This document shows positions 1,669-21,494 of a stretch of 59,768 nt of DNA, piece after piece. Under the pieces are notes generated by a model that ran no database searches, had not been told where the DNA came from, and worked only from the letters and a program-made list of their open reading frames with translations. How positions within the stretch are numbered: position 1 is the stretch's first letter; every line of letters begins with the position of its first letter. The DNA is from Pseudomonadota bacterium (GTDB lineage: Bacteria > Chloroflexota > UBA6077 > JAJPHF01): positions 1 to 59,768 of the forward strand of contig JAJPHF010000122.1 of assembly GCA_021325365.1 (NCBI GenBank), read 5' to 3'. Made by a program: the position numbers and the translations under genes.

Positions 1669-2936
1669 ATGTACCGTATACCAACATCTCTTTTGGCTGT
1701 GCGCACTATCGCGATGGCGGTCGCCGCGCTGCTGATGACAACTGTTGTGACCAGCGTATATAGCCGGGCGTCCGCTTCCTATGCCGAGCCGTTCAATGGC
1801 CGGCCCACCTGGCCCGAACCCTGGCGCTCGCTCGATTGGGATCTGACGGCGCACTCGCGCGACCCGGACACTTGGCGCGCCCCGCTTCCTATGGACGCCG
1901 CACACGGCGTCACCTGCGCGGCCCCACCAGCAGTTCACGCGGTCAATTCGTACGATGATACAGTTTTCCTCTGCAACGACCATTCATGACGGCCATCAAC
2001 GCCAGCGGTTACGGCGTCATCTACCTTACGCCGAGTCACGTGGTGGACTTCGCGGACGGCGAGGCCGCCATCCGCTTCGACCTCTCTACCCTCCGTACTT
2101 CGCCCCGCGACTGGATCGACTTCTGGTTCAGCCCCTACGACGCCCACCTCCAACTCCCGCTCGAAGACTGGCTCCCCGACCTGAACGGCCCGCCGCGCAA
2201 CGCCATCCATATCAAGATGGAGAGCCTGCACGGGACCACGCCCTTCAAGGCGTTCGTCTACCGCAACTTTCGGGAAGAGGACCTGGGCGGCAACTCGCAG
2301 ACGGGCTACGAGAGCTTCCTGGAGCCGAGCGCCCTGCGCCGCGACACCTTCGAGCTGGAAATCTCGCGGACACACCTGAAGTTTGGCATGCCGGCCTACG
2401 ACTTCTGGTGGGTGGACACGGACATCGCGGATCTGGGCTGGGACCAAGGGGTGGTGCAGTTCGGCCACCACTCCTACGACCCGACGCGCAACTGCCCGAC
2501 CTGCGGCCCCAACACCTGGCACTGGGACAACGTCTCTATCTCCTCGGCCGTCCCGTTCACCATGCTGCGCGCCGACCGCCGGTATGTGGACCCCGACACC
2601 GAGCCCGGCGTGAATTTCCCTGGCCCCTCGCCTCAGGGCAGCCGGCTGCGCTTCGCGGGCGTCGGGCGCAACATCGAGGTGAGCTTCGACGGCGGCACAA
2701 GCTGGGAGCCGGCGCAGCTGCAGACGCAGATGAAGTACGACTACAGCCGCTTCCAATCGTACTGGACGCCGATCCCCGCCGGTGTCCGCAGCGTGCAGTT
2801 CCGCGGCGAGAGCGCGACGCCCGGGCTGCCGTGGATGGTGCAGGACGTCGCCATCTGGTCGCGCGAGGTGCCTGCCGCGCAGAGCCACACGCAGCCGCCG
2901 AGCGAGCAGGCCACGCTGTACCAGTGCCCGCTATAG
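1669..2936 (+). pseudogene. Secreted protein gene split by a frameshift (two overlapping frames, ATGA junction)
   Basis: The first frame (1669-1989, 106 residues) has a GAGGG site, an N-terminal hydrophobic signal segment (about residues 9-31), then a mature region ending ...TVFLCNDHS. The second frame (1986-2936, 316 residues) begins MTAINASGYGVIYLTP and overlaps the first at an ATGA. The two halves read as one continuous protein: the first has no complete domain, and the second has no signal peptide and no good ribosome site of its own. The simplest reading is one about 420-residue exported protein broken by a one-base shift near 1986. The second half is rich in W/D/Y beta-type segments (FDLSTLRTSPRDWIDFW, GWDQGVVQFGHHSY), suggesting a carbohydrate-binding or jelly-roll fold, but no catalytic family is claimed. 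The alternatives are a sequencing error or true translational coupling. Confidence 0.7.
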
Positions 2937-3028
2937 CCTCCTGCAGCGCTCGTCTGGCGCCCTGGTAGCGCGATTCCCGCGGTCGCTAGCGATGACGCGG
3001 TGGCCAATGCCGGGGCGCAAAGGTGGCG

Positions 3029-3460
3029 TCAGGGCCAGCCGAGCGCCTCCCGCACTTCCGCCTCGCGCCAGCCTGGCAGGCGGTAGCCGTGGATGATCTG
3101 CTGCTGGAGGTCGGTCCAGGTGAACAGCCGCGAGCGCCAGTCCCCGGCCGCGGCGACCCAGTCCAGCATCAGCCGCGCCCGCACCTCCAGCCGGGCGAGG
3201 GGCACCGTCTGCGGGATGAGCATGATCCCGCCGTGCGGGCGTCCCGCGCGCTCGAACACGGCGTGCAGGCGCCGGAAGTCGATCTGGTTGTGCGAGAGGA
3301 GCAGGCGGCCCTGCTGCGAGGCGAATAGGAGCTGGTCCTCATCATCGTCGCTCACCCGCTGCGCTTGCTGCACCGTCAGCACGTCGAACCCGTGCGCCGC
3401 GAGGGCCGCGGCAAGGCGATGATCCACGCACTCGTCCAGGTACAGGGCCGGCGCCGCCAT
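3029..3460 (-). CDS. DUF5615 family PIN-like toxin
   Basis: 143 residues. The N-terminus LYLDECVDHRLAAALAAHGF, then QQAQRVSDDDEDQLLFASQQ and LLLSHNQIDF, is the DUF5615 (Mut7-C/PIN-like RNase) pattern with acidic residues at D9/E10, the DDDEDQLL segment and the final N-x-x-DF. Members act as the toxin, a presumed RNase, beside a DUF433 antitoxin. Its ATG overlaps the stop of the DUF433 gene (TGATG), the usual translational coupling of these pairs. It converges on the frameshifted secreted-protein gene with about 90 bases between. The length is somewhat above the usual 110-120 residues because of a C-terminal extension. Confidence 0.85.
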   Translation of the reverse strand: MAAPALYLDECVDHRLAAALAAHGFDVLTVQQAQRVSDDDEDQLLFASQQGRLLLSHNQIDFRRLHAVFERAGRPHGGIMLIPQTVPLARLEVRARLMLDWVAAAGDWRSRLFTWTDLQQQIIHGYRLPGWREAEVREALGWP

Positions 3461-4148: not shown

Positions 4149-4385
4149 ATGGCCGATGCACGCGAGAAGATAGTGGTCAGTGAGCGACACATCAAGTTGT
4201 CGCCGCGGACCTGCGCGACCTGCGGTCAGCCGTTTCACGGTTGGGGCCGACAGCGCTTCTGCACTGTGAGCTGTCAGCGGCGCTGGGACTACCTGCAGCA
4301 TGCCGACGCGCGCCGCGCACGGCGCCGCGAACGGTACCAGGTCCAGAAGCGGGCGACAGCCCGAGTGCGAGAGGGAGGGGAGTAG
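4149..4385 (+). CDS. Small zinc-finger protein encoded upstream of the integrase
   Basis: 78 residues. The centre contains C-x2-C and C-x3-C pairs (TCATCGQPF ... RFCTVSCQ), a treble-clef-like zinc site, followed by a very basic tail (RRARRRERYQ) suited to nucleic-acid binding. The gene ends 2 bases before the integrase ATG and GGGAGGGGAG at its end serves as the integrase ribosome site, so the two are co-expressed. In integrative elements this position is often held by an excisionase or regulator. This protein has no HTH that I can see, so its role is inferred from position only. Confidence 0.7.
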   Translation: MADAREKIVVSERHIKLSPRTCATCGQPFHGWGRQRFCTVSCQRRWDYLQHADARRARRRERYQVQKRATARVREGGE

Positions 4386-4387
4386 AG

Positions 4388-5530
4388 ATGGCCGGCAGGA
4401 AGCGCGGCAACGGCGAGGGCAGTATCTCACAGCACCCGGACGGCCGCTGGTGGGCGCGAATCACGCTGCCCAACGGGAAGCGGAAGGCGTACTACGGCAA
4501 GACGCGCGAGGACGTGAAGCGACTGCTGACGAAGGCCCTCCATGACCAGCAAGAGGGCCTGCCTATCGTCAGCGAGCGTCAGACGCTCGGCCAGTTCCTC
4601 ACGCGGTGGCTCGACGACACGGCCCGGCACCGGGTGCGCCCCGGCACGTTCCGGCGCTATCGCGAGCTTATCCACCTGCACACCGTGCCGACTCTCGGCA
4701 AGCTCGTGCTGACCAAGCTGGGCCCTCAGCACCTGAGCCACCTCTACGCCGAGAAGCTGGAGGCGGGGTTGTCCACGCGGACCGTCGAGTTCCTGCATCG
4801 AACACTTCACTGCGCGCTCAAGGAAGCCGTGCTCTGGGGACTGATCGCTCGTAACCCGGCCGACGCCGTGAAGCCGCCGAAGCCTCAGCGCCCGCCCATT
4901 CGGCCGCTCAACCACGAGCAGGCGCAGGCGCTCTTGCATGCCGCGGACGGCGATCCGCTGGAAGCCCTCTACGTGATGGCCCTGATGACCGGCATGCGGC
5001 AGGGCGAGCTGCTTGGGCTACAGTGGGCGGATCTCGACTGGGACAGCGGCCGGCTCCAGGTCCGGCACACGCTCCAGTGGCACAAGGGCGGCGTCTGGAC
5101 GCTGGACGACCCGAAGACCGGCCACAGCCGGCGGAGCATCCGTCTGCCGGCCAGTGCGCTGCAGGCGCTCAAGGCGCACCGCGCGCGCCAGGCCGAGCAG
5201 CGGTTGGTGATGGGCGCGGCCTGGGAAGACAACGATCTGGTCTTCTGCAACGGTCTCGGGCGCCCTCTGGAGCCGACGAACCTGCTGCACCGCTCCTACA
5301 AGCGCCTCCTTGACAGGGCCGGCCTGGCGCGCGTTCGCTTCCACGATCTCCGGCACACCTACGCCACCCTCGCGCTCCGCGACGGCGTACCCGTGAAGGT
5401 GGTCTCAGAGACGCTCGGCCACGCCAGCATCACGCTGACGCTCGATACCTACAGCCACGTCCTCCCCGACATGCAGGACGACGCGGCGGCCCGGATGGAG
5501 CGGTTGCTTGGCCGCGCCGCCGGCGGCTAG
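4388..5530 (+). CDS. Tyrosine-type site-specific integrase
   Basis: 380 residues from the ATG at 4388, behind a strong purine-rich site. The frame extends upstream but only over the preceding gene. The N-terminal GNGEGSI/DGRWWARI region is the arm-type AP2-like DNA-binding domain, residues about 60-150 are the SAM-like core-binding domain, and the catalytic domain shows R204 (TGMRQGE), H319-x-x-R322 (HDLRH), H345 (LGH) and the nucleophile Y355 (DTYSH). All five active-site residues are present. It is followed by a hairpin terminator and then by a tRNA-Met gene whose 3' end faces it. This is the normal arrangement of an integrative element inserted in a tRNA, with the element extending to the left. 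Confidence 0.95.
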   Translation: MAGRKRGNGEGSISQHPDGRWWARITLPNGKRKAYYGKTREDVKRLLTKALHDQQEGLPIVSERQTLGQFLTRWLDDTARHRVRPGTFRRYRELIHLHTVPTLGKLVLTKLGPQHLSHLYAEKLEAGLSTRTVEFLHRTLHCALKEAVLWGLIARNPADAVKPPKPQRPPIRPLNHEQAQALLHAADGDPLEALYVMALMTGMRQGELLGLQWADLDWDSGRLQVRHTLQWHKGGVWTLDDPKTGHSRRSIRLPASALQALKAHRARQAEQRLVMGAAWEDNDLVFCNGLGRPLEPTNLLHRSYKRLLDRAGLARVRFHDLRHTYATLALRDGVPVKVVSETLGHASITLTLDTYSHVLPDMQDDAAARMERLLGRAAGG

Positions 5531-6810: not shown

Positions 6811-9417
<2,607 letters not shown>

Positions 9418-9855: not shown

Positions 9856-9863
9856 GCCTAGCT
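9856..9863. repeat. Left 8-bp target duplication (GCCTAGCT) of the IS66-type element
   Basis: Identical to 14374-14381 and immediately outside the left terminal repeat that starts at 9864. IS66-family elements make 8-bp target duplications. Confidence 0.8.
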
Positions 9864-10104
9864 GTAAGCGTTCAACTCCCCCATTTGATGGCCTCACCGC
9901 GAGCTTGCCCAGCGGGCTGCGACGCGCGACAACCGCGGCATGATCGAGACGCCCTGCCTGCTGGAGCCCGCGCTATGGGTGACCGCTCCGGCTCTTGACC
10001 CCGGTCCTCTGCTGGAGCAGGTGGCGATGCTCCGGCGGGAGACCGCTGTCCGGCGTGCGGAGAATACCGGCCTGCCAGCCCGCAACCGTGGGCTGAACGG
10101 CTAC
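9864..10104 (+). mobile_element. Miniature IS66-derived unit (internal, 241 bp)
   Basis: A GTAAGCGTTCA-type end at 9864 is mirrored by an inverted end (GGCTGAACGGCTAC, ending 10104). Between them an open stretch from 9940 encodes LLEQVAMLRRETAVRRAEN, resembling the coiled-coil N-terminus of IS66 TnpC, and runs into the right repeat. It looks like an internally deleted IS66 copy (MITE-like). No separate target duplication is visible around the inner end. Confidence 0.45.
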
Positions 10105-10138
10105 TTGACGAGAAGCCCGGTCATCACATACATTCCGT

Positions 10139-10384
10139 GTAATCGTTCACCTATCCCGGTCGAGTAGCGAGCAGCGATGGCGCCGCCCTGGTCTGGAGCC
10201 CGGCTTCGCTGGCGGCCACCAGAACGGCCAATAGCGGCCGGCTTTGCTGCCGACAGGTCGCCGCCACGGTCAGCAGCCGCTCGGCAAAACGACTGCCCGC
10301 CTCACTATCCAACCCGAAACGGCCCTTGCGCCACAGCGCGGCCGGCCGCAGGACGCGCCCCGCCACATTGTTGGTCGACTCCAC
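10139..10384 (-). pseudogene. IS66 family transposase (TnpC) C-terminal remnant with its terminal repeat
   Basis: On the - strand, residues STNNVAGRVLRPAALWRKG, DSEAGSRFAERLLTVAATC and APSLLATRPG match the C-terminal region of IS66 TnpC (STNNxAERxLRP-x-x-x-RK, EAGSRFxERxLTxxATxRQQ, PSLLP). The stop codon at 10151 lies inside an IS66-type end (GTAATCGTTCACCTATCCC from 10139), where tnpC normally ends. Upstream the gene is cut off at 10385, where another degenerate end (GTATGCGTTGAGTCCCCC) begins. Only about 80 of about 500 residues remain, so it is inactive. Confidence 0.8.
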
Positions 10385-10402
10385 GTATGCGTTGAGTCCC
10401 CC
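10385..10402 (+). repeat. Degenerate IS66-type end
   Basis: GTATGCGTTGAGTCCCCC resembles the outer end of the element and abuts the truncated tnpC remnant. It marks a junction between two insertions or a deletion endpoint. Confidence 0.5.
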
Positions 10403-10414
10403 GCGGTGCCGGGA

Positions 10415-11767
10415 CTAGAGGAAGCGGTTAGATGGCACCGGCGACCCCAGCCGCAAGCGGCGTCGGTCCCCCTCTGACCGGAGCGCCCCCGCCGTCGCGT
10501 CCCCGGTCATGGTGCCGGCGCGTGCGGCCAGCGCTCGAAGCGCCGCCAGGTCCACCTTCGGCAGCGCCTCGGCCGGGAGCGTCGTGCCGACCAGCCGCGT
10601 CGCCAGTTCCGCCACCTCACCCTCACGCGGCGCGGACTCCTTCACCTGGCGCGTCTCTGGGTCAACGGCTAGGCGCGTTTCCCAGGGCGTCCGGCTGACC
10701 TGGTAGAGATACGTCGTCAGATCGGCCGCGAACATGGGCTCGCTCAGCCAGCAGGTGGCGTGACTGAAGAGGACCTGCCCGGGCCGTTGGAGGGTCAGCG
10801 ATCTCAGCACCTCGGGGGGCAGTCTATCCAGATCGTAGGCGACGACGAGCCCCGGCGCCACGGTCCCTCCCACCCCGTCGCGGCCGGTGACCCAGGGCTC
10901 GACTGGGAGCTCCAGCAAGTGCGCGACCGCCTCGGCGAGGATGGCGCTCTCCCGGTCGGGGAGAGCGAATACTCGCGGCGGCGAGAGGCCCAGCGCATCG
11001 AGCGCGACGGCGAGCCGCCGGATCCCCTCCAGGCACAGCTCGTCGGAGTCCTGGATGTAAGCGTAGCGCCCGTGCATGCCCTCGTCGAAGCCGAAGGGGG
11101 ACAGGTGCAGGAGGATGCTACCATTCAGCACGAAGTGCCAGCCGCGGAGGTCCCGCCCGTCCAGTGCGGCGACGCCGTCCAGGGCATCCGCCCGCGCCAG
11201 CATGCCCTCAAGGGCCGTGGTCATCCCCTGGTAGGGCTCGCCGTGGTACATGCGCAGTCCCGGTAAGAGCCTGCGCGGCTCGGCCAGGTCGCCGGTCATG
11301 ATCGCGTTGAACGCCAGCAGATAGCGGCAGTGGAAGCTTCGCGCGAGGAGGTCCGGCGCCGCGCGCAGGAACCGACACGCCTCCGCGTTCAGGAGGTCCA
11401 TCTCGAGCGCGGTCACCAGTTCGGTGACGATGCTCTCTCGCCCCGGCGCCAGCGTGTTCGCGCGGGCGAGAATTGTCGCGGCGATAGCCGGCAAGCGCTG
11501 CTCGACGAGCGCGTCGCCCAGGGCGTAGAGCGCCGAGACATCGTCAGGATCGGCGACGACCTGCACCACCTTAGCCGCGAAGGCCGCCCCGGCGAGGGCC
11601 GCGCTGATGCGCTCGAACAGCGCGAGCGCTTCCGTCCAGCGGCGCCGGTCAGCGCCGAGTTGCCCGGGATACCTGAGCACCTCGCGGAGCTGCTGGAACG
11701 CCGCCCTGGCATCGCCCGCAGCGAGCGCCGTGGCGGCATCGGCTTGCAGCCGCTCATAGTCGGCCAT
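10415..11767 (-). CDS. TPR-like hypothetical protein carried in the IS66-type element
   Basis: 450 residues, ATG at 11767 behind GGAGG (8 bases). The first half is all helical with alternating A/L patterns typical of tetratricopeptide-like repeats (AATALAAGDARAAFQQLREVL, YALGDALVEQRLPAIAATIL ARANTLAPG). The second half changes character: HGRYAYIQDSDELCLEGIRRL, VFALPDRESAILAEAVAHLL and LVVAYDLDRLPPEVLRSL look like an alpha/beta domain. No catalytic motif is recognised and I cannot name a family. No signal peptide or membrane segment, so it is cytoplasmic. It is the largest cargo gene, not a known transposition gene. GC is similar to the chromosome. Confidence 0.75.
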   Translation of the reverse strand: MADYERLQADAATALAAGDARAAFQQLREVLRYPGQLGADRRRWTEALALFERISAALAGAAFAAKVVQVVADPDDVSALYALGDALVEQRLPAIAATILARANTLAPGRESIVTELVTALEMDLLNAEACRFLRAAPDLLARSFHCRYLLAFNAIMTGDLAEPRRLLPGLRMYHGEPYQGMTTALEGMLARADALDGVAALDGRDLRGWHFVLNGSILLHLSPFGFDEGMHGRYAYIQDSDELCLEGIRRLAVALDALGLSPPRVFALPDRESAILAEAVAHLLELPVEPWVTGRDGVGGTVAPGLVVAYDLDRLPPEVLRSLTLQRPGQVLFSHATCWLSEPMFAADLTTYLYQVSRTPWETRLAVDPETRQVKESAPREGEVAELATRLVGTTLPAEALPKVDLAALRALAARAGTMTGDATAGALRSEGDRRRLRLGSPVPSNRFL

Positions 11768-12352
11768 GAGTTGACCTCCTAACAGGGTGACGGTTCAGCT
11801 ACCCCGTGGTGCGGGGAGCTGCGATGGCCACACCCGTGGGCCTTCTCCGCGCTACTGGACCCGGGAGGGCCTCTCGCGCTGCATGCTGGTACTATGGCGG
11901 CCCACCGGCCGTGTCAGAGCCATTGCAGGAGCACGGCCGGAGGCGCGGATGGACGTATGGAGAGCTCTGTCACCGCCTCCCCAACCGTCGCCATCATGGC
12001 CGAGGGTGCTGCTCTGGCCTGGGCAGCGGCTGATCGAAGTCGCCGACACGCACGACGTCGTTCGGAGGTAAGCGTTCAGCGTCCCTGACCTCCGGGGCGC
12101 AACGATCGCTAAGCATAGTGGCGTCAGGATCACGGAAAAGGCGCGCGGCCCCTGCCTTGCTCCCTCACGCGCGCATCCGCGAGCTGGAAGCTCGGCTGGG
12201 GCAGACCTCGTCCAACTCCTCGCGTCCCCCGTCGTCGGATCGACCCCAGGCAGGGTGTCGGTGAGCAGCTTGGAGACCATGGGGCAGCCCTCCGGCCGGT
12301 ACTGCGCGCCCCGCGAGCAGGCGCCCGGACGGTTCCGATCCTTAGGCCGGGG
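11768..12352. other. Intergenic region inside the IS66-type element, with further IS66-like ends
   Basis: 585 bases with no convincing gene. Two sequences resemble IS66 ends in + orientation: GTGACGGTTCAGCTACCCC at 11787-11805 and GTAAGCGTTCAGCGTCCC at 12068-12085. The second lacks a matching target duplication. They suggest that the cargo was assembled by successive insertions. Confidence 0.4.
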
Positions 12353-12826
12353 TCAGTCGATTTCCCGGCGCCGTCCACAGCCCGGGCAGACGGCTGTTTC
12401 AAGCGTGTTGGACAAGCCGCAGCGGCAGTGCCACAGGGTCGGGGCTGAGTCGCTATATCCGCGCGCTTCCGGTTTCAGCGCGGCACCGGGTGCGGCAGGG
12501 CGGGGTACGGTCGACGGAATGTCCGCCGGAGGGACGTAGCGGCCCACCTCCTCTCCTCGGCGCTTCTCCTCCGCCCATAGTTCCTTGACCGAGTAGCCAC
12601 AGCGGAAGCAGAACCGGTGTCCAACGAGCATGAACATACCACACGGGCAAACCCAGCCGGTCGGCCTGGACTGGCCGACGAGGTTGAGCAAGTAAAGCCA
12701 TGGGTCCGACATGCCCCGCGAACATTGTCGGCAAATGAGGTCCGGTAGCGGATAGTCCGCCGACCAGGAGAAGTCGTTCTGCTGGCCGCATGCGGTGCAG
12801 TACAATGCGACATCTGTCGTGGCCAT
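12353..12826 (-). CDS. Multi-zinc-ribbon hypothetical protein
   Basis: 157 residues, start at 12826 with GGAGAG upstream. Four cysteine-pair groups are visible: CTAC(10-13), CRQC(32-35), a CPC/CFRC group (about 60-76), and CRCG...CPGC near the C-terminus (about 134-152), so two to three zinc ribbons are likely. A Pro/Ala-rich linker separates the last ribbon. No catalytic domain is seen; such proteins bind nucleic acid or protein partners. Cargo of the IS66-type element, in the same orientation as its neighbours. Confidence 0.7.
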   Translation of the reverse strand: MATTDVALYCTACGQQNDFSWSADYPLPDLICRQCSRGMSDPWLYLLNLVGQSRPTGWVCPCGMFMLVGHRFCFRCGYSVKELWAEEKRRGEEVGRYVPPADIPSTVPRPAAPGAALKPEARGYSDSAPTLWHCRCGLSNTLETAVCPGCGRRREID

Positions 12827-12856
12827 AGGTTTCTCTCCACGTGGTGCCTTGCCAGG

Positions 12857-12930
12857 GTATGCGTTCAGCCCCTCTGTGCCCCAGGGAGCAGAGTGCTTAC
12901 CTGCTGCTTACAAGGGGGCTGAACCCTTAC
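12857..12930. repeat. 74-bp unit bounded by inverted IS66-like ends
   Basis: The left end is GTATGCGTTCAGCCCCTCTG (12857-12876). The right end read inward is GTAAGGGTTCAGCCCCCTTG (12930-12911). Sixteen or more positions agree. The unit is too short to encode anything and could fold into a hairpin. It sits exactly at the broken 3' end of the WG-repeat gene, so it may mark where that gene was cut. Confidence 0.55.
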
Positions 12931-12943
12931 AATGTCCCCTCGA

Positions 12944-14123
12944 TCATCGGCCAAATTGTGGGGCAATCGCTATATGTCCAGCGCTGTCGATATAGCCCCA
13001 CCGTCCTCCGTCACACACCGCTGCCAGCCCCTGAGAAAATCTGCCGCCAAGCAGAAACCGCGGGTTAATTATCATCCTGCCGGTTTTATCGATGTAACCC
13101 ACGTGATTGTCTCCGGAATTGCCGAAGTACGTCACCATCGCCATGTTTTCCGAGAACGGGCTGCTGCGTCGAACTGTGGTTGGATTATTACCTCGCCATT
13201 CTCATCGATATACCCAAACATTCCACCGTCGAACCGGACTGCTGCTACCCATCTGAGAAGTCGGTAGCTGGAAGGCTGGAGAATGCAGCACCTGTAGTTG
13301 TCCCCGAAAACTGCAACCCAATAACTAGACGCCCCTGTTGATCTATGTACCCCCAATTATCATTGTTATCCGATACGGCGGTCCTGCCGCCGTGAAATTC
13401 CAGTCCACTATATGAGATGTCAATCGTAACAGCACCAGTTTTGTCGACGTATTGCGTACCACTACCTTGATTCCTATCTGGTATCACGATGGCCAGGCCA
13501 TCAGAAAAATCTCGCGCCGCGAAATATCGAGGATTGATTACGAATGACCCCGTGTAGTCAATATAACCTGCATGATTGCCGAAGCTGACCGCGGCCAGGT
13601 CGTCATGAAATGGGCTGGCCCAATCAAATTGCGGCTCGATTGCAACACGACCATTAGGATCGATATAACCAAACTTGCCGTTTTGGCCTATAACTCCAAG
13701 ATCTTCCGAGAACACGTACACCAACCACTCTAACGGCGGGTCTGCGATAACGTTGCCCTGTTTGTCAATGTACTGGGCGTGATCGCCTATGAGAATAGGC
13801 GCAACGCCGTCATGAAAGTCACCGACCATATCATATTGTGGCGGTATGATAATGCGATCGGTCCGATCGATAAAAGCCCATTTGTCGCCGACCGCCACGC
13901 CGGCCATGTCCTCAGAGAAGGTCCGTGCGCCAGGGGTCTGGTAATCCCATTCGCAGTCGAACCACGACGGGTTAGTCTGGATCAGAAGACGCGGGTCCAG
14001 TAGCGTGTGGGGAACGATAGGAGCCGTGCGAGCCCAGGTGACGCTTTGCTCTCTCGCACTGGTTCCGGGCAGGAAGCCAAGGCAGGCACAAAGTCCTAGT
14101 ACCAGAATAACCCCTACCTTCAT
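12944..14123 (-). pseudogene. Secreted WG-repeat protein, broken by two frameshifts and truncated
   Basis: ATG at 14123, chosen for AAGGAGAG 9 bases upstream and the signal peptide that follows (MKVGVILVLGLCACLG). Repeats of the WG type (GYIDxxGxxxIxPQF...F-x-DGLA) run throughout: YIDPNGRVAIEPQF, GYIDYTGSFVINPRY, GYIDQQGRLVI, then in other frames GYIDENGEVIIQPQF and GYIDSAGHIAIAPQF. The frame changes near 13250 (after FSDG) and near 13145 (at the FSENMAMV-like segment). The last repeat stops at APQFGR, 13 bases before the IS66-like end at 12930. The gene is therefore decayed, or contains two one-base errors, and lacks its 3' end. AT-rich relative to its surroundings. Confidence 0.8.
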
Positions 14124-14373
14124 CTTGGGCTCTCCTTGCCGGAATCGCAGTGGCACCATTACGTCGCCGGAAGTGCTCATCGGCGCTACCGGCCGATCCC
14201 CGCAACATGCTCACTCGCCGCGTCGAGCACCGAGCGCGAGTGCCACGAGAGGTCTTGCCGTTCTCTACGCGGCTCTGACGGCAGGGGCAGCGCGGTCAGC
14301 ATCATAGCCCGTGGTATACGGCGCGACCGGCCCGGAGTGCAACCCGCGGCTAGCAGGGGGCCTGAACGCTTAC

Positions 14374-14381
14374 GCCTAGCT
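14374..14381. repeat. Right 8-bp target duplication (GCCTAGCT)
   Basis: Identical to 9856-9863, immediately outside the right terminal repeat ending at 14373. Confidence 0.8.
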
Positions 14382-14441
14382 TATCCAGCCGGCCCGCGCG
14401 CCCGGCGCGGCGGCCCCGGAGCGCGCTTGCGGGAGACCAAG

Positions 14442-14972
14442 ATGGACGACGCGATCACCGTCAGGCTAGACCGCCCGATCAGGTCCCTCCCCCTACAAGA
14501 CGCCTTGCGCACGATCGGCTATGGCCTGGAGGCCAGCCGCGTGCGGCGCGCACGCTTGCAGCTCAGCGCGGCCGGCGTCGTCGTGGAGACCACGGGCGCC
14601 TACGCTGTGCGATCCTATAGCTGGGACGATCTGGTCGTGCAGGTGCGGGTGCAGCGCGGGCTGCGCCAGCCCGGCGGGCCGGCCGCCGACCCGTGGACGC
14701 TCACGCGCTGGTCGGTGCTGCTGCGCGCGACGGGATTGCTGCTCGATGCCCAGAGCGTGCGCCAGGCCGAGATCGAGGCGGCCGTAGCGCCATCCGACGC
14801 ACCGCGCGCCTGTCAGCTCACGGTGCGCGTGGGCGAACAGGTCGTCCTCACCGCCGCGGCGATCCACGAGCGACTGGAATGGCTCCGCCTGCGCCACGCC
14901 GCCGACCGTGCCGAGCCTGCGGTCCCCGCCGCCCCGCGCCCCGCCTGGCGGCTGCGCTGGCCGCGCCGTTAG
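14442..14972 (+). CDS. Hypothetical protein, 176 residues
   Basis: ATG at 14442 with GGGAG upstream. The frame is open further upstream, but that part crosses the insertion boundary and reads as random Arg/Ala-rich sequence. Residues about 3-75 (VRLDRPIRSLPLQDALRTIG and RARLQLSAAGVVVETTGAY) form a mixed alpha/beta unit. A helical/strand second half and a Pro/Arg tail follow. No signal peptide or membrane segment. I do not recognise a family. Its upstream region was separated by the IS66-type insertion, which may have displaced its promoter. Confidence 0.5.
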   Translation: MDDAITVRLDRPIRSLPLQDALRTIGYGLEASRVRRARLQLSAAGVVVETTGAYAVRSYSWDDLVVQVRVQRGLRQPGGPAADPWTLTRWSVLLRATGLLLDAQSVRQAEIEAAVAPSDAPRACQLTVRVGEQVVLTAAAIHERLEWLRLRHAADRAEPAVPAAPRPAWRLRWPRR

Positions 14973-15244
14973 CTACCGCCCAGGCCGTCGAGCCCTGGAC
15001 GCGGAGGACCGCCACGGCCAGCACTCGCCGCCCGTTGCTCGCGGCTGCTCGCCCGCGTACCCGTCGGCTCCCCGCGCCGACCGCCGCTCGGCTGCCCATC
15101 TGCTATAGTCGGCCGCGATTTGGCGCTGAGATGAAGTCGCCGCCCCGCCCTTCGACTCGATGGCACGCGGACAGAGTACGCCGGCGGGACCACGCTGGCG
15201 CGAGCCGCCGACGGGGTAGCCTCGTGCGCGGCGAAGGAGGTGAG

Positions 15245-16205
15245 ATGGGCAGGCTCGCCCGCAGCATGATCTACTCGCGTCGCTGGCTCGCCGTCGTCCT
15301 CGTGGCGATCGCCGTCGCCACGGCCGGCGCCCCAGGTTACGCCCGCACGTTACGTCAGGCGCCGCCGCCGAGCGCCGCCGATGCTCAGGCCGCGGACATC
15401 GTCACGCTGGCGCGGGATGCCATGACGAAGAACGACCTGAAGTCGGTCATCGTGCGGGTGACGATCGACGGGCAAGAACTCGTGACCGAGGCCCTCGGCG
15501 ATTCGATGACTGGTGTGCCGGCCACCACGGATATGCACTTCCGAGCTGAATGCCTTGTACGCGGACCCGTTTCGCCAGTGGACCCCCCAGGAGCTGATCC
15601 AGATCGGTCTCTCCACGCCACGGGTGTTCGCACCCGGCGCCAACTGGGACTACTCGCACACGAACTACGTCATCCTGGGTCAGGCGCTGGAGAAGATCAC
15701 GGGCCAGCCGCTGGCGACGCTGCTGCAAGAGTACGTCCTCGAGCCCCTGGGCTTGAACGATACCGCGAGCTGGTCTACGCCCACGATCCCCGCGCCGGTG
15801 CTGCACGCGTTCAGCTCGGAGCGCCGCGAAGCGCTCGGCATCGCGCCCGGTACTCGCTTCTATGAAGAGTCGACGTACTGGAACCCCTCCTGGACGCTCG
15901 CCGCGGGCGCAATCCAGACAACCAACATCTACGATATGACCGCGACGGCGATCGCCGTGGGCGAGGGCACGCTGCTGTCGTCCGAGTCCCACCAGGCCCA
16001 GGTGGCCCCCCGCCTCCTCGGGTTCGGCGCCCCCCTGGCGGGCTGCCCCAACTGCCACACGCTGCGGCGATCGCCGCCCGCCTGGCCCCTGAGGACGCGC
16101 CGCCCGTCAGTGCGCAGTGAGATGCCCGTTCGTTCGCGGCCGCCTCCCGCCTCACCCCGCACGCGCCGCGGTCCACGGCAGTATTGGAGATCGTGGACGG
16201 GGTAG
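15245..16205 (+). pseudogene. Serine hydrolase (beta-lactamase class C / DD-peptidase type), internally deleted
   Basis: The gene begins well (GGAGG, ATG at 15245, signal peptide SRRWLAVVLVAIAVATAG) and reads to TDMHFRAE near 15548. There the frame jumps to one that continues LYADPFRQWTPQELIQIG, NWDYSHTNYVILGQALEKIT and PLGLNDTASW, the YxN-motif region of the family. The stretch between, which normally carries the nucleophile motif SxxK and the following helices (about 70 residues), is missing. The C-terminus also loses its frame after AGCPNCHTL near 16060. With neither SxxK nor the final HTG-type motif, the product cannot be catalytic. Confidence 0.8.
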
Positions 16206-16223
16206 CGACGGGGGCGAGGGGCG

Positions 16224-16553
16224 TTATCCCTCGTCGGATTCGAGGGAGGCCTCGAGGTCGAGGATCGGGCCGCCCGGGATGTCGCGGGTTGCGACGCGCC
16301 GGAGGTGCTGGAACTGCTCCAGGTGGGCGCTCGCCCGCTGCAAGTAGGCCGCGCTCAGCTCTAGCCGCTGGCGTGCGTCGGGGGGCAGGTCGGGGTGGGC
16401 GATGAGCACCATGCTGAGATTGCCGAGCGCGCCCGTCAGGTCGTTGTTGATGCAGTGCGCGATGCCGCGGGCGGTGAGCTGGGCGCCCTCCAGGCGAGCG
16501 CGGCTCCCTGCGGCAGCCGCGCCAGGCTCGAGCGCCGCTTCGTCCTCGGCCAT
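16224..16553 (-). CDS. Orphan histidine-kinase dimerisation (DHp-like) domain protein
   Basis: 109 residues from the ATG at 16553 (AAGGGGG 6 bases upstream). Residues 25-90 resemble a HisKA helix pair. GIAHCINNDLTGALGNLSMV matches the phospho-acceptor box G-x-AH-x-x-NN-x-L-x-x-h-x-G, with the candidate histidine H33, followed by a second long helix. There is no HATPase domain and no receiver or sensor domain. It could be a phosphotransfer protein, a partner that dimerises with a full kinase, or a kinase fragment. No cognate regulator is adjacent; the nearest gene upstream (16613, same strand) is an amidohydrolase. Confidence 0.6.
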   Translation of the reverse strand: MAEDEAALEPGAAAAGSRARLEGAQLTARGIAHCINNDLTGALGNLSMVLIAHPDLPPDARQRLELSAAYLQRASAHLEQFQHLRRVATRDIPGGPILDLEASLESDEG

Positions 16554-16612
16554 GGAACACCCCCTTCCGAACATCGTACAAGAGGGCGGCACCCCGTCCG
16601 CTCGCCGTCCAG

Positions 16613-17491
16613 TTAAGAGGTAGTTGGCTCGGCTGCCCCGCCATCCGCCGCGGCAACCGTCAGGCGTGGGTAGAGTCGCAGCGCCGTGCCGCCGAGGATC
16701 GCGCCCTGGTCGGCGGCGGGGAGCGCCGCGATAGCCTGGCGCATGGCCGCCAGCATCGCGCCGAGCGGCCCGGGCGTGTGCGGCAGGTCGGAGCCCCACA
16801 GCAGCCGCGCCGCCCCGAACCGCTCTACCAGTAGGTGCATGACGCGTTCCGCTGGCGCGTCTGCCGCCGCCAGCCGCTGCAAGTTGATCGTGGACAGCTT
16901 CAGGTGAAGATTGAACGGAGCAAGAGCGAGCAGCGGCCCGAGGCCGTACAACGGCGGCCCTTCCTCCCACGGTGGGTTGCCTGCGTGGTCGAGCACGACG
17001 GGCACCCCGGGAAAGCGCTCCAGCATCGCTCGCAGCGCCGGCAGGCCGGCAGCGTACTGGCCGAACGACCAGAACACGCACACCGGCACCCTGAGCCGCG
17101 CCGCCTGCGCCCAGACCGCAGGCGTCTGCAGCCAGTCCATGCCGCCCTGGCGGTTGGCGGCCACTAGCCGCACGCCCGCCGCGCCGCGCTCCGCGACCCA
17201 GTAGGCCAGCCGCTCGGCCGCGTCGGACGCGAGCGTGTCGATGCCGCAGACGGCGGCCACGCGCCCCGGATGCCGCCGTGCGCTGTCCACCACATAACTG
17301 TTGTCCCAGCCGTGGACGTGCGCGAACTGCACCAGCAGCGCGCGGTCCACGCCCGCCGCGTCCATCGCCGTCAGCAGGCCCTCGGTGTCTAGCCGGCGGG
17401 CGATCGTGTCCGACAGCTGGCCGTCCACCGCGCTAAACGGGTAGCGTGCCTGGTCCGGCGCGATGACGTGCGCGTGAGCGTCGACGATCAC
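16613..17491 (-). CDS. Amidohydrolase family protein (TIM-barrel, amidohydrolase-2 type)
   Basis: 292 residues. The GTG at 17491 is preferred because GGAGG lies 10 bases upstream and the metal-binding HAH (VIVDAHAHVIAPD) starts right after it; longer upstream extensions are featureless. A later histidine on a barrel strand (VVLDHAG) and the aspartate of LLWGSDLPHTPG complete the amidohydrolase-2 metal site. The family includes decarboxylases (ACMSD/LigW-type) and lactonases. It follows a degraded dihydroxyphthalate-decarboxylase-like gene on the same strand, hinting at an aromatic-acid pathway. The substrate is unknown. Confidence 0.8.
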   Translation of the reverse strand: MIVDAHAHVIAPDQARYPFSAVDGQLSDTIARRLDTEGLLTAMDAAGVDRALLVQFAHVHGWDNSYVVDSARRHPGRVAAVCGIDTLASDAAERLAYWVAERGAAGVRLVAANRQGGMDWLQTPAVWAQAARLRVPVCVFWSFGQYAAGLPALRAMLERFPGVPVVLDHAGNPPWEEGPPLYGLGPLLALAPFNLHLKLSTINLQRLAAADAPAERVMHLLVERFGAARLLWGSDLPHTPGPLGAMLAAMRQAIAALPAADQGAILGGTALRLYPRLTVAAADGGAAEPTTS

Positions 17492-17526
17492 GGTGGCGCG
17501 GCCTCCTTGGCGCGATGCGGCGGGCG

Positions 17527-17712
17527 TCAGGCGCCGGGCGCCGCGAGCGTCTCCGGGATGAATAGCTCCTCGATTGTGAAGGGGCGCGGGATGAGGCCCT
17601 GCTCGTGGGCGAAGCTCAGCGTCAGGTCGTCCGAGCGCACGGAGCCGTCGATGAGCGGGTGGTTCAGGTCGTGGTCGGCGACCGCAAGCACGAGCGGTGG
17701 CTGCGCTGCCAT
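17527..17712 (-). pseudogene. 4,5-dihydroxyphthalate decarboxylase-like gene reduced to its two ends
   Basis: The ATG at 17712 has GGGGAG upstream and opens a 61-residue frame. The first about 33 residues (PLVLAVADHDLNHPLIDGSV) match the N-terminus of the 4,5-dihydroxyphthalate decarboxylase/periplasmic-binding-like family. The rest (AHEQGLIPRPFTIEELFIPE) matches its extreme C-terminus. About 270 residues between are absent, with the reading frame preserved, so this is a clean in-frame internal deletion. The product cannot be an enzyme. Next to the amidohydrolase, it is a relic of a catabolic operon. Confidence 0.7.
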
Positions 17713-17862
17713 GGCGTCTCCCCACACGCGGCGCCTTCAGCACACCGCGGCGTAGCCCACGATACCGCGCCGGCCGCCACGAGTCAATCCGACCCACTTG
17801 GGGGAGGAGGCCGCCCCGGCGTATGATGGCGTCACCATCTCGCCAGGCGACAGGAGGATGCG

Positions 17863-19026
17863 ATGCCGCTCGTCCGCGCGCGTGCCGTCGGGGCGCTGGG
17901 CGCCCTCGTCCTGCTCCTCGGGGCCTGCGCCCCCGCGTCCGCGCCGCCCGCGACCCAGCCCGCCAGCGCGACGACCGCGCCGACCGCCGGCGCTGCTCAG
18001 GCTGTCGCCGCGTCCCCGCCGCCCGCCGCCCAGGCGGCGGCCTCTACCGCCGCCCCGGCGCCTGTCCACGTGCGCCTATCCGGCCAGAAGCTAGCCGTCG
18101 AGGGCGTCACCTGGATCGCCGAGGAGCGTGGCTATTTCCGTCAGGAAGGCATCGAGATTGAGAACGTCTCCTTCACCTCGGCCTCGGAGATGATCCCCGC
18201 GCTCGCCACGGGCCAGCTCGAGGCCGCGCCCATGCCCGCCAACCCCGCCATGTGGAACGCCGTGGCGCGGGGCGTCAACGCCCGCGTGATGCTCGACCTG
18301 GGCACCTACCGGCCCGGCGAGAGCGAGCAAGCGGTCGCCATCCGCAAGGCCGTATGGGACGCGGGCCGCGGGCACCAGCTCGAAGACCTACGCGGCATGG
18401 CCGTCGCCATCACCCCGCCGGGCAAGGCAACCACCAGCGGCTGCGCCCTCTCCGCGGGGCTGGCCAGCGTTGGCCTAACGCTCGACGACCTAGACATTCA
18501 GCCCGTCCCCTTCCCCGAGATGGTTGCCGCCTTCGCCAACGGCGCGATCGACGCCGCGCTGATCACCGAGCCGTTCAAGACGCGCGCCATCCAGCAGGGC
18601 ACCGCCGTGAGCTTCATGGGCCTCGGCGACATGTATCCCAACTTCACCATCGCCACGCTCGGCTTCGCCGACAGCCTCTACAGCAACCGCGCCGCCGCCA
18701 AGGGCTTCGTGCGCGCCTACCTCAAGGCGTTGCGCGAGTACCTGGCGGCGATGAGCGGCCAGGCCGGCGATGCGGCCAAGGCCCAGGTGGTAGACGTCAT
18801 CGCCCGTGGCACCGGCATCGATCCCGACACGGTCCGCGCGATGGTGCCGCCCAACTTCAACCCGAACGGGCTGCCCAACCGCGACTCGATGATGTACTGC
18901 TACGGTTTCTTCCGCGACCAGGGCCTCATCCCCCAACCGATCTCCGACGCCGCATTCGCCAACCTCTGGGGCACCGATCTGGTGAACGAGGTGCTCGACG
19001 AGGTCGGCCGCGTCCCGGAGAGCTGA
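17863..19026 (+). CDS. ABC transporter substrate-binding lipoprotein (NMT1/TauA-like)
   Basis: 387 residues behind AGGAGG. The lipobox LLGAC gives a lipid-anchored Cys22, followed by a long Ala/Pro/Thr linker (to about residue 65). The binding fold is of the NMT1/THI5/SsuA type: EERGYFRQEGIEIE, ALATGQLEAAPMPANPAMWNA, LRGMAVAITPPGKATTSG, FANGAIDAALITEPF. Such receptors take up sulfonates, nitrate, pyrimidine precursors or aromatic acids. No permease or ATPase gene lies beside it. It is divergent from the amidohydrolase/decarboxylase remnant, a context often seen with phthalate-type receptors. Confidence 0.85.
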   Translation: MPLVRARAVGALGALVLLLGACAPASAPPATQPASATTAPTAGAAQAVAASPPPAAQAAASTAAPAPVHVRLSGQKLAVEGVTWIAEERGYFRQEGIEIENVSFTSASEMIPALATGQLEAAPMPANPAMWNAVARGVNARVMLDLGTYRPGESEQAVAIRKAVWDAGRGHQLEDLRGMAVAITPPGKATTSGCALSAGLASVGLTLDDLDIQPVPFPEMVAAFANGAIDAALITEPFKTRAIQQGTAVSFMGLGDMYPNFTIATLGFADSLYSNRAAAKGFVRAYLKALREYLAAMSGQAGDAAKAQVVDVIARGTGIDPDTVRAMVPPNFNPNGLPNRDSMMYCYGFFRDQGLIPQPISDAAFANLWGTDLVNEVLDEVGRVPES

Positions 19027-19143
19027 GCGCCGCGCCCGGCCCGCGAATCCAGTAATACCGAATCCGCGGTACTTCACGCCGTAGGCGATCATCACTTCGA
19101 GAGCAACTCTTCGCTGCCGGTCCGATAGCCGGACGGGGCCGCG

Positions 19144-20352
19144 TCACGCGGCGGCGCGTGCCTGGAAGCGGAGCGGCAGGCGCGTCACGCCGCGAAGAAA
19201 CGTATTGTCGGTCAGCTCGGGCGCCGCGCGTTCCGCAAGCTCGATCGCCTGTAAGCGACGGAGCAGGATGGTCAGCGCGACCCGCGACTCCAGCCGTGCT
19301 AATGGTGCCCCCAAGCAGAAGTGGATGCCAGCGCCGAACGCCAGGTGCGGGTTGGGGGTACGCGTCACGTCGAAGCGGTCGGGCGCCGCGAACACGGCCG
19401 CATCGCGGTTGGCGGCCGCCGTCCAGGCCAGGATGCGCTGGCCGGCCTTGAGATGCTGGCCGCCGATCTCCGTGTCGCGCGCCACGAAGCGCGCGATCGC
19501 CTGGACGGGGCCGTCGTAGCGCAGCGCCTCCTCGACGGCCGAGGGCACCAGCGTTAGATCGGCCTGCAGGCGCGCGAGCTGGTCCGGATGGTCGAGCAGG
19601 GCCAGCACGGCGTTGCCGAGCAGGTTCGTCGTGGTGATGTGTCCCGCGACGAGCAGCACCGTGCAGAACGCCAGCACCTCCCCCTCGCTCAGCCGCTGCC
19701 CCTCCACCTCGGCGGCCACCAGCCGGCTGACGAGGTCGTCCTTCGGGGTGGCGCGCCGCTGGTCCACCACGTCGCGGAAGTAGTTGTTCATCTCTTGGAG
19801 CAGCTGCATCCGCTCCCTCACGAGCGGCGAGTTGGCGTCCGTGGGTATCTCGTTGGTGCCGCTCACCAGGGCGTCCGCCCAGGCCTTGAACGTCGGGCGG
19901 TCGCTGGCGGGCACGCCGAGCATCTCGGCGATGACCGTCACTGGGAGGGGATAGGCGAGATCGGCGATCAGGTCCATGTGACCGGCGGGGATCACCGCGT
20001 CGAGCATCGCCTCGGTCAGCTCGGCGATGTGCGGCTCAAGCTGGGCGATGGCGCGCGGCGTGAAGGCGCGCGAGACGAGGTCGCGCAACAGCCGGTGCCG
20101 CGGCGGATCGGTCCCCACCAGGCTGCTGCCCACCCGTATCTGCTCGATCATCTGTGGGTCGGCCCCGGTCAGCAGGCGCGTGCGATCCGAGGAGAACGTG
20201 TCGTGGTCGGTAATGACGTGCCGCACGTCGTCGTAGCGATAGACCGCCCAGAAGCCCGTGCGCTCGTCGTAGGCCACGGGATGGTCGCGCCGCATCATTG
20301 CGTAGAACGGATAGGGATCGCGCCGGTACTCGGCCGGAGGCACTACGTTCAT
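19144..20352 (-). CDS. Cytochrome P450
   Basis: 402 residues from the ATG at 20352. The frame stays open upstream but is only antisense to the next gene. Conserved P450 features: I-helix LLVAGHITTTNL (acid/alcohol pair changed to H-I, TT retained), ExxR as EEALR, the heme loop FGAGIHFCLG with the thiolate Cys at about 346, and the R of PDRFDVTR. The size and the absence of a membrane anchor place it with soluble class I bacterial P450s that hydroxylate small molecules with ferredoxin partners. No ferredoxin or reductase is next to it. It is divergent from the chagasin-like gene with a 243-base shared upstream region. Substrate unknown. Confidence 0.93.
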   Translation of the reverse strand: MNVVPPAEYRRDPYPFYAMMRRDHPVAYDERTGFWAVYRYDDVRHVITDHDTFSSDRTRLLTGADPQMIEQIRVGSSLVGTDPPRHRLLRDLVSRAFTPRAIAQLEPHIAELTEAMLDAVIPAGHMDLIADLAYPLPVTVIAEMLGVPASDRPTFKAWADALVSGTNEIPTDANSPLVRERMQLLQEMNNYFRDVVDQRRATPKDDLVSRLVAAEVEGQRLSEGEVLAFCTVLLVAGHITTTNLLGNAVLALLDHPDQLARLQADLTLVPSAVEEALRYDGPVQAIARFVARDTEIGGQHLKAGQRILAWTAAANRDAAVFAAPDRFDVTRTPNPHLAFGAGIHFCLGAPLARLESRVALTILLRRLQAIELAERAAPELTDNTFLRGVTRLPLRFQARAAA

Positions 20353-20595
20353 CTCATCCACCTGCCTGCTGCCCCACTGTGACGATATCGAACTCCACAC
20401 GAAGGGTTGGCTGCCGCAGAGCCCGTGCCGCCGGGCGCGGCCACAGCCTGCGCCGGCCATCCACCGTGCCGCGGCATCCCGCCCGCCCGCGCCTCGCCCG
20501 CGGCACCAGCCCTGCGCGTCGCGCGCTCGTCCGTTACCTTGCCACAGCCCGCGCCGATGGGCCAAGATACGCCCAGCGCGCGAAGGAGAGACCTG

Positions 20596-21045
20596 ATGCG
20601 ACTGGCCCGGTTCTGGCGCGGCGGCCTGGCGGCCGCGCTCGCCGTCGGCGTGCTCGCGCTCGGCGCCCCGCTCGGCCAGGCGGCCCCCGGCGACCAGGCC
20701 CACGCGGGCAGCTTCTGCGGCGACGCTCCCGAGCTGCCCGCCGACGCGCCCCCGACGGCCATCGCCGCCACGGTCGGGGTACCGTTCTCGATCACGCTCG
20801 ACGCCAACCCCACCACCGGCTACTCGTGGGAGCTGGCCACCCCGCTCGACGCGAACGTGGTCGATCTGTTGCAGCACACCTATCAGCGCAATGGCCCCGC
20901 CCGGCCGGGCGCGGGCGGCACGGCGATCTGGACGTTCGAGCCGCTCTGCACGGGCTTCACGACCATCGTGCTGCGCTACAGCCGGCCCTGGGAGCCCAAC
21001 GACCCGAGCGACCGCCAGGTCGCCTACGACATCTACATCCACTGA
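20596..21045 (+). CDS. Secreted chagasin-type cysteine protease inhibitor (I42 family)
   Basis: 149 residues from the ATG at 20596 (AAGGAGAG). The signal peptide is at about residues 8-30. The three inhibitory loops of chagasin are recognisable in order: NPTTGYSW (71-78), the Gly-rich PGAGGTAIW loop (about 104-112) and RPW (130-132) before the end. The family inhibits papain-like cysteine proteases by inserting these loops into the active-site cleft. Two cysteines (C41 and C118) could form a disulfide. It acts outside the cell; the target is unknown, perhaps a competitor's or the host's own protease. Confidence 0.85.
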   Translation: MRLARFWRGGLAAALAVGVLALGAPLGQAAPGDQAHAGSFCGDAPELPADAPPTAIAATVGVPFSITLDANPTTGYSWELATPLDANVVDLLQHTYQRNGPARPGAGGTAIWTFEPLCTGFTTIVLRYSRPWEPNDPSDRQVAYDIYIH

Positions 21046-21477
21046 GGAACGGTCAAACGATGCTCCTTTACCAGGTGGTTAACTGCTAGGCCGGGCGCGG
21101 GATTCAGCGTGCTCCTCGGGCGCGGAAGGTCGCATCGTTTGCCCCGTACGATACTCCCCCGGTAGCCTGCCGCGGGCCGGGCCGGCGGGGGCGTGCCCCG
21201 GGCCGGGCGCGGGCGGCGGGCGGGGTGGGAGGCGTGTACGGCGTAAGATTGGCGACCACGTCGCGCGAGCTAGCAGGCGCTCTCCGGCGCGTCTCGCGGC
21301 CTGGCAGGGCGCAGCAAGCAGCGCCCCTACAAAGTAATGCATTGGCGGGAGGCGATCGTCCGGCGCGGTTGGTGGGCAGCGACGCTGGGAGCATAGCCGG
21401 GGGAGCCGGGCGACCGGCGGGTGCCGGTGGGGGGGCAGCCGGGGGCCTGCCCGCCATTGCTGCCCCCCGGGCCGTGG
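21046..21477. other. Intergenic region with a small inverted-repeat unit
   Basis: 432 bases without a convincing gene. Perfect 10-base arms CAAACGATGC (21054-21063) and GCATCGTTTG (21132-21141) bound an about 90-bp unit. The rest is low-complexity G/C-rich sequence. Confidence 0.4.
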
Positions 21478-21492
21478 GTTACACTGTGTAAC
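21478..21492. promoter_or_regulatory. Perfect palindrome immediately before the HTH-MEDS-kinase start
   Basis: GTTACAC-T-GTGTAAC, 7-base arms, ends 2 bases before the ATG at 21495. No ribosome site fits in between, so either the mRNA is leaderless or this start is not used. It is a natural candidate operator for the HTH domain of the adjacent protein. Confidence 0.45.
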
Positions 21493-21494
21493 GT

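Follow-up and report, generated by a model that had tools for sequence, protein, structure and literature searches.

A 4.5-kb block with IS66-type ends, tnpC relics and three cargo genes downstream of clpB in a Chloroflexota genome

Passenger genes between the ends of IS66-family insertion sequences have been described before: such elements have been named tIS66, and the accessible part of the source counts 7 of them among 25 IS66 members that ISfinder lists for Pseudomonas (PMC12888890). Within the ISBst12 group, ISDge4 has one gene for the transposase, its ends are imperfect (GTGACTACTCAGCA and GTAACTGCTCAGCA), and its direct repeat is 8 bases long (excerpt of PMC12898284). For two Paracoccus IS66 members, a table column that we take as repeat length gives 8, and the same excerpted source names mobile insertion cassettes (MICs) as non-autonomous elements (PMC3281130). 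Here we describe a 4,510-bp block (9864-14373) in a stretch of 59,768 nucleotides, contig JAJPHF010000122.1 of assembly GCA_021325365.1, the whole of which is called the window below. Three cargo genes and remnants of the transposase gene tnpC lie in this block between inverted IS66-type ends. With a probability of about 0.6, we read it as a non-autonomous mosaic derivative of a tnpC-only (ISBst12-like) Chloroflexota IS66 element that was moved as a unit. A preliminary description of the locus had assigned it to a little-described class, an assessment that is not supported, passenger-carrying IS66 elements being published as tIS66 (PMC12888890).

The block is delimited by GTAAGCGTTCA at 9864 (+) and at 14373 (-), with the octamer GCCTAGCT on either side, at 9856-9863 on the left and at 14374-14381 on the right. 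The inverted ends and the exact 8-bp target duplication had both been proposed in the preliminary description, and both were confirmed, the two copies of GCCTAGCT showing 0 mismatches; a duplication of 8 bp is that of the IS66 family. To judge its specificity, we compared flanks throughout the block. The nine ends counted there form 13 inward-facing pairs, and matching 8-mers were found only at 9864/14373, whereas the flanks of the other 12 pairs differed at 5 to 8 positions. Two random 8-mers of the window are identical with a probability of 1.05e-4, which amounts to ~1.4e-3 over 13 pairs. Across 257 end pairs from the window and the loci compared with it, some places being included twice, an 8-bp duplication with at most 1 mismatch was present in 4 (3 distinct), against a mean of 0.23 at shifted offsets. 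Furthermore, matches resembling GTAAGCGTTCA, with 2 mismatches allowed, numbered 17 in the window versus a chance mean of 5.92. Transposition as a unit is the simplest reading of the outer ends and the duplication together.

We assigned the ends to the IS66 family through a complete relative. An 87-residue tnpC relic from the block, used as query, gave matches at E 1e-12 in 14 of 400 Chloroflexota genomes, the best of them in genome G305. The intact G305 element (locus L127, contig 65) measures 1,567 bp and comprises a 3' end at 1754, a 493-aa tnpC and a 5' end at 3320. Its TnpC matches DDE_Tnp_IS66 (PF03050, E 8.2e-38) and the NCBIfam IS66 transposase (NF033517, 310 bits, cut-off 180), and no flanking 8-bp duplication was found for it in the end-pair scan. 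On the same contig (1057-3320), a tspO gene is flanked on one side by the intact element (1754-3320) and on the other by a mini derivative of IS66, 126 bp long (1057-1182). The left outer end of the block, of the left inverted repeat (IRL) type and taken together with the subterminal bases that precede the start codon of tnpC (9864-9939, +), aligned to the IRL of the G305 element with z 12.7 (local alignment, 200 shuffles) and an identical ACAACCGCGGCATGATCGAGA, and it was the top match in the whole window for an 85-base G305 IRL query. Thus, terminal inverted repeats of IS66 type (GTAA...) are present that are homologous to the ends of an element encoding a PF03050/NF033517 TnpC, and the earlier claim that the ends are IS66-type is borne out by the left one, which is homologous to an intact Chloroflexota IS66 element over its 5' end and the beginning of tnpC. 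The right outer end (14304-14373, -) is, from end comparisons, best read as IRL type too: it was the top window match of the G305 1182 end, it gave z 4.5 to the left end and 1.1 to the G305 IRL, and it has ATGATG 68 nt inside the tip, resembling 5' ends.

Further ends of the same family occur within the block. When the G305 right inverted repeat (IRR) was scanned as a 45-base query over both strands of the whole window, 7 of the 10 best matches fell inside the block, compared with a mean of 0.62 and a maximum of 2 for shuffled queries (n=40); one of the seven, at 12770, was not counted as an end. In total, seven further IS66-type ends were recognised inside, at 10104 (-), 10139 (+), 10385 (+), 11787 (+), 12068 (+), 12857 (+) and 12930 (-), which makes the unit a mosaic. 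Support is strong for 9864 and 10139 and fair for 10385; 10104, 11787, 12068, 12857 and 12930 were called mainly from tip and scan rank. The IRR-type end at 10139-10150 (+), beside a tnpC stop codon, was the second best window match of the G305 IRR (z 6.4), and that at 10385-10414 (+), where 30 nt separate the tip from the TPR stop codon (gene described below), gave z 3.7. The IRR-type end at 10094-10104 (-) was the fourth best match (z 0.4 without its 12-base tip) and is separated from 10139 by 34 bp. Paired with 9864, it would delimit a tnpC-deleted mini-copy of 241 bp; the flanks of that pair do not match. A degenerate IRR-type end at 11787-11811 (+) was the best window match of the G305 1057 end (z 2.7) and the third best of the G305 IRR (z 1.8). 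At 12068-12079 (+) there is a perfect 12-bp end, GTAAGCGTTCAG, behind whose tip the bases match no reference end (z 0.5 to the G305 IRR). Finally, tips and scan delimited a 74-bp piece at 12857-12930 whose two ends are IRR-like and inverted relative to each other; it lies 30 nt upstream of the zinc protein gene and 13 nt past the stop codon of the WG-repeat gene. Compared without the tip to the 3' end of G305, its ends gave z 2.6 (12857) and 0.3 (12930). We rejected a nested unit beginning at 10385, the flank GACTCCAC having only one exact copy in the window.

The block holds no intact TnpC transposase. The preliminary description had noted only a tnpC relic; the absence of an intact transposase was upheld, but three relics were found, at 9940-10098, 10154-10384 and 12166-12258, with lengths of 53, 77 and 31 codons. 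The first (+) corresponds to the first 55 residues of tnpC (49% identical to residues 1-55 of the G305 TnpC by tblastn, E 6.7e-5) and was not detected by the TnpC profile. The second (-), an open frame covering residues 416-492, is 66% identical to G305 TnpC (IS66 TnpC profile E 1.3e-30) and is truncated precisely at the end sequence of 10385. The third (+) comprises the leucine-zipper/PPSSD region (profile E 6.2e-10, positions 37-67). The two longer relics contain no stop codons, which favours sharp deletions over slow decay and implies no date.

Related elements in other genomes may point to a tnpC-only group. TnpC relatives at E 1e-40 were present in 5 of the 41 genomes of G305's class, G305 included. 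Both the G305 element and a 1,613-bp element in G250 (L130) have room for tnpC alone; the window likewise holds only tnpC pieces, no search aimed at tnpA or tnpB having been made. The G250 element and a 4,216-bp element in G233 (L129) each have an exact 8-bp duplication and tips with 2 or 3 mismatches to GTAAGCGTTCAG. The G233 element (contig 30, 3153-7368) is flanked by CGGGCTCG, and its tnpC is split by serine recombinase frames (Resolvase E 4.6e-34, Recombinase E 5.8e-5). In G221, which belongs to the order of G078, the genome whose clpB locus was the closest to that of the window among 15 compared, GTAAGCGTTCAG occurs 8 times versus 1 for the reversed control. Two of the eight copies are beside tnpC pieces, and seven are no further than ~620 bases from the end of a contig, a pattern expected of a multicopy element. 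G078 itself carries a solo 5' end of a related IS66 (L102, contig 311, 4986-5277) with a tnpC piece (residues 152-221) fused close by, apparently another deletion derivative judging from its structure; no partner end at ≤1 mismatch was found within the 10 kb examined.

Three genes make up the cargo. The preliminary description had placed them on one strand; the minus strand indeed carries all three, an arrangement that would suit transcription from one end, but the WG-repeat gene is not one open frame. The first gene (10415-11767, -) is intact and encodes a 450-aa TPR protein. Its structure model (mean pLDDT 93.9) and the Foldseek and VIA-align matches, mostly TPR superhelices, predict such a superhelix for residues 1-195. 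The C-terminal part is strongly conserved (DLRGW and PGQVLWSH motifs), and our searches gave no sequence match to it in Pfam or PDB. At least 255 matches, itself included, were obtained among 7,996 candidates scored, and 41 loci in genome_contigs belong to many groups (Myxococcus, Streptomyces, Dictyobacter and others). Among the 400 sampled Chloroflexota genomes, 3 have a relative, none of them among the 16 genomes of G078's order; this count omits G001 (the genome of L004), which also has one and was either undrawn or missed. One of 72,556 plasmid records has a partial relative, and none was found in viral_contigs. This patchy distribution indicates that the TPR gene was probably acquired horizontally.

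The second gene (12353-12826, -) encodes a 157-aa zinc protein with 12 cysteines, which we read as three putative four-Cys zinc ribbons and not as the four clusters first proposed. It had no relative except itself among 36 candidates, and weak partial matches in 2 plasmid records (72,556 plasmid records for the TPR search). The third, a WG-repeat gene (12947-14180, -), is distributed over three pieces in different frames (13245-14180, 13135-13299 and 12947-13201), either as a pseudogene or through sequencing error. A WG piece gave 2,078 matches, itself included, the best other being 38% identical over 69%. In the protein database, 6 contigs are recorded for the zinc protein and 6 for a 292-aa form of the WG protein. 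At ~53% GC, the WG region is the lowest-GC 1.2-kb stretch of the window (70.8% GC overall); together with the rarity of TPR relatives in Chloroflexota, this is why we consider the cargo foreign. None of the three proteins had a match at E 0.01 in PADLOC or NCBIfam. No zinc, WG or tnpC relatives were found in the flanks of the 41 TPR loci (tblastn E 0.01; flanks up to 8 kb, often shorter), and the 11-base end (≤1 mismatch) was present at 2 of them: in L002 it is 7.6 kb away from the gene, and in L041 it falls within the TPR match itself. There was no recurrent neighbour family at these loci, the largest beyond the TPR cluster itself (28/41) occurring at 6 of 41. Thus, no joint function is suggested for the TPR and zinc proteins, there being no shared neighbourhood for TPR, and the three cargo genes seem to be of separate origins.

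We also examined how genes start beside IS66-type ends. The TPR start codon lies 19 nt past end 11787 with a ribosome-binding site between, and the ATG of the zinc gene 30 nt past end 12857, likewise with a ribosome-binding site; neither interval leaves much space for a promoter. Because IS66-type ends cut both genes off so shortly upstream of their starts, they are probably transcribed from inside the element. In G305, tspO (PF03073, E 1.2e-46) starts 24 nt past a tip at 1740 and 38 nt past the 3' end closing the intact tnpC element, and it ends 8 nt from another end. Overall, reading frames of ≥100 codons start within 40 nt of 5 of the 20 listed 3' ends versus 1 of 15 5' ends. The five are 11787, 12857, G305 1740 and ends in L129 and L133; in the case of the zinc gene, the start that was scored is a preceding GTG in a different frame. 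By eye, a ribosome-binding site was visible only for TPR, zinc and tspO, and none for L129 and L133. A promoter scan gave 1 found versus 1.0 expected. The start positions suggest, from two genomes only, that passengers may be placed behind tnpC and read from within.

Taken together, the block may be understood as follows: its left part is a mini-copy from which tnpC has been deleted, next comes another tnpC fragment that has a 3' end of its own, and the rest consists of three captured genes with further ends between them. By acting on both outer ends, an IS66 transposase would have carried the entire 4.5 kb into the intergenic space downstream of clpB. As the block retains no transposase, the enzyme was either provided by another copy, which would be the mobilisation in trans put forward in the preliminary description, or lost at a later time. 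Transcription of the TPR and zinc genes would probably come from within the element, as expected for passengers located behind tnpC.

Several observations weigh against this interpretation. Evidence for the type of the right end is weak (z 1.1 to the G305 IRL), and ends of the same type at both sides would be unusual for one element. With other G305 ends as queries, the block was enriched weakly or not at all: it took 4 of the 10 best matches for the 1057 end (maximum in shuffles 3), 2 for the IRL cut to 45 bases (maximum 2) and 1 for the 1182 end (maximum 2). The internal ends show later insertions or deletions, so that the cargo may postdate the insertion. Lastly, neither a second copy of the unit nor an empty site was found in the genomes searched.

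The host DNA is Chloroflexota: ClpB (6811-9417) is 83% identical to the best match among the 400 sampled genomes, and among 15 clpB loci compared by DNA, G078 was closest (84% over the gene). The block, which occupies 7.5% of the window, is located between clpB and a right-flank reading frame (14442-14972, no Pfam match). In the 15 ClpB-relative loci (L042-L056), homology to the window stops with the clpB gene, making them too distant to show an empty site. The right-flank gene had no relative in genome_contigs (596 pattern stretches, none confirmed) and no match in 4 genomes of G157's family, where an empty answer carries no weight. The region 14382-21500 had scattered matches in 11 of the 16 genomes of G078's order, and the first 1,000 bases beside the insertion were uncovered among the matches listed. 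The joined 20-base empty site was not found in viral_contigs. We further collected 40 stretches around scattered ends (all 22 remaining places in G305, all 15 in G221 and, in G078, 3 out of 8); none of their 32 end pairs had an 8-bp duplication at ≤1 mismatch and one had it at 2, leaving tspO in G305 as the sole parallel.

A less likely course of events is that an ordinary tnpC-carrying IS66 element inserted and made the duplication, after which nested insertions and deletions destroyed tnpC and added genes singly, the cargo never having been a passenger of the outer ends. The abundance of tnpC relics and internal ends in the block agrees with this, as does the relic at 10154-10384, cut exactly at an end sequence, and the G233 element, which kept its exact duplication with tnpC split by recombinase frames, exemplifies just such a process. 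Yet the left relic is the N-terminus of a plus-strand tnpC for which no plus-strand C-terminus was seen near 14373, the right end resembles, on moderate evidence, a 5' end, and none of the 12 other end pairs in the block has kept an 8-bp duplication.

We consider it unlikely that the block arose by serial gene capture, in which an IS66 element repeatedly used a 3' end further out and swallowed the adjacent gene, leaving fossil 3' ends that punctuate promoterless genes. The genes are separated by same-orientation ends (10139, 10385, 11787 and 12857), TPR, zinc and tspO start 19, 30 and 24 nt beyond such ends, and ISPa75 has fosZ behind its transposase gene, according to the portion of the source at hand (PMC12888890). 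Only two genomes contribute, however; the contrast in gene starts is weak and judged by eye, and neither 10385 nor 10139 has a reading-frame start within 40 nt. Moreover, the G305 unit lacks an 8-bp duplication, and surviving insertions tend to be near gene ends anyway. In its general form, equally doubtful, this proposal would make Chloroflexota IS66 elements serial gene collectors that skipped their own 3' end, captured genes with a ribosome-binding site and without a promoter, and finally lost tnpC. Genes would queue behind tnpC with fossil 3' ends between them, driven from inside the element, and after loss of tnpC the array would ride on transposase made elsewhere. It is very improbable that the 8-mers match by accident and that unrelated IS66 fragments simply accumulated in the block, despite the numerous IS66-type ends within 4.5 kb: an exact match in any of the 13 pairs is expected at ~1.4e-3, and the pair that shows it is the outermost one, whose tips are the best.

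Elsewhere in the window, a tyrosine recombinase (Phage_integrase, E 8.5e-26) is encoded at 4241-5530 (+), upstream of clpB and left of the block, and a stretch of low GC (55-56%) is present at 401-2000. On the right, a Beta-lactamase-fold frame (PF00144) at 15513-16205 (+) overlaps a plus-strand frame at 14693-15865, possibly by a frameshift like those of the WG gene.

If transposition of the block as a three-gene, transposase-less unit in an environmental Chloroflexota is true, this would suggest that the IS66 family is able to move gene arrays as stranded passengers. The internal ends may record how genes are picked up, and such a record would make the transition from insertion sequence to transposon testable by sequence comparison alone.

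How, then, does the block compare with known systems? MICs are known from Bacillus cereus and IS231, which is a different family from IS66. Like them, the block has cargo between insertion sequence ends and no transposase of its own; unlike them, it keeps transposase relics, and its mobilisation in trans is putative. With the ISBst12 group, as far as the excerpt describes it, the block shares imperfect ends and an 8-base repeat, and its relatives in G305 and G250 have room for tnpC alone; members of that group carry their own transposase, and the excerpt mentions no cargo (PMC12898284). The closest likeness is to tIS66 elements such as ISPa75-fosZ, which, in the accessible text, have GTAA-starting IS66 ends, a passenger between them and target duplications (PMC12888890). 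Passengers between ends are present in the block as well (three, one split over three frames), and its own transposase is absent. By the same partial account, ISPa75 keeps tnpA, tnpB and the DDE transposase and carries one passenger (PMC12888890), whereas the block has no intact transposase, three cargo genes and several internal ends, and probably belongs to another IS66 group. No transposase-less IS66 element with several cargo genes was recognised in the titles and abstract starts among the literature matches listed, subscription papers being mostly outside coverage. The block would be a three-gene, transposase-less form of the known passenger-carrying IS66 kind.

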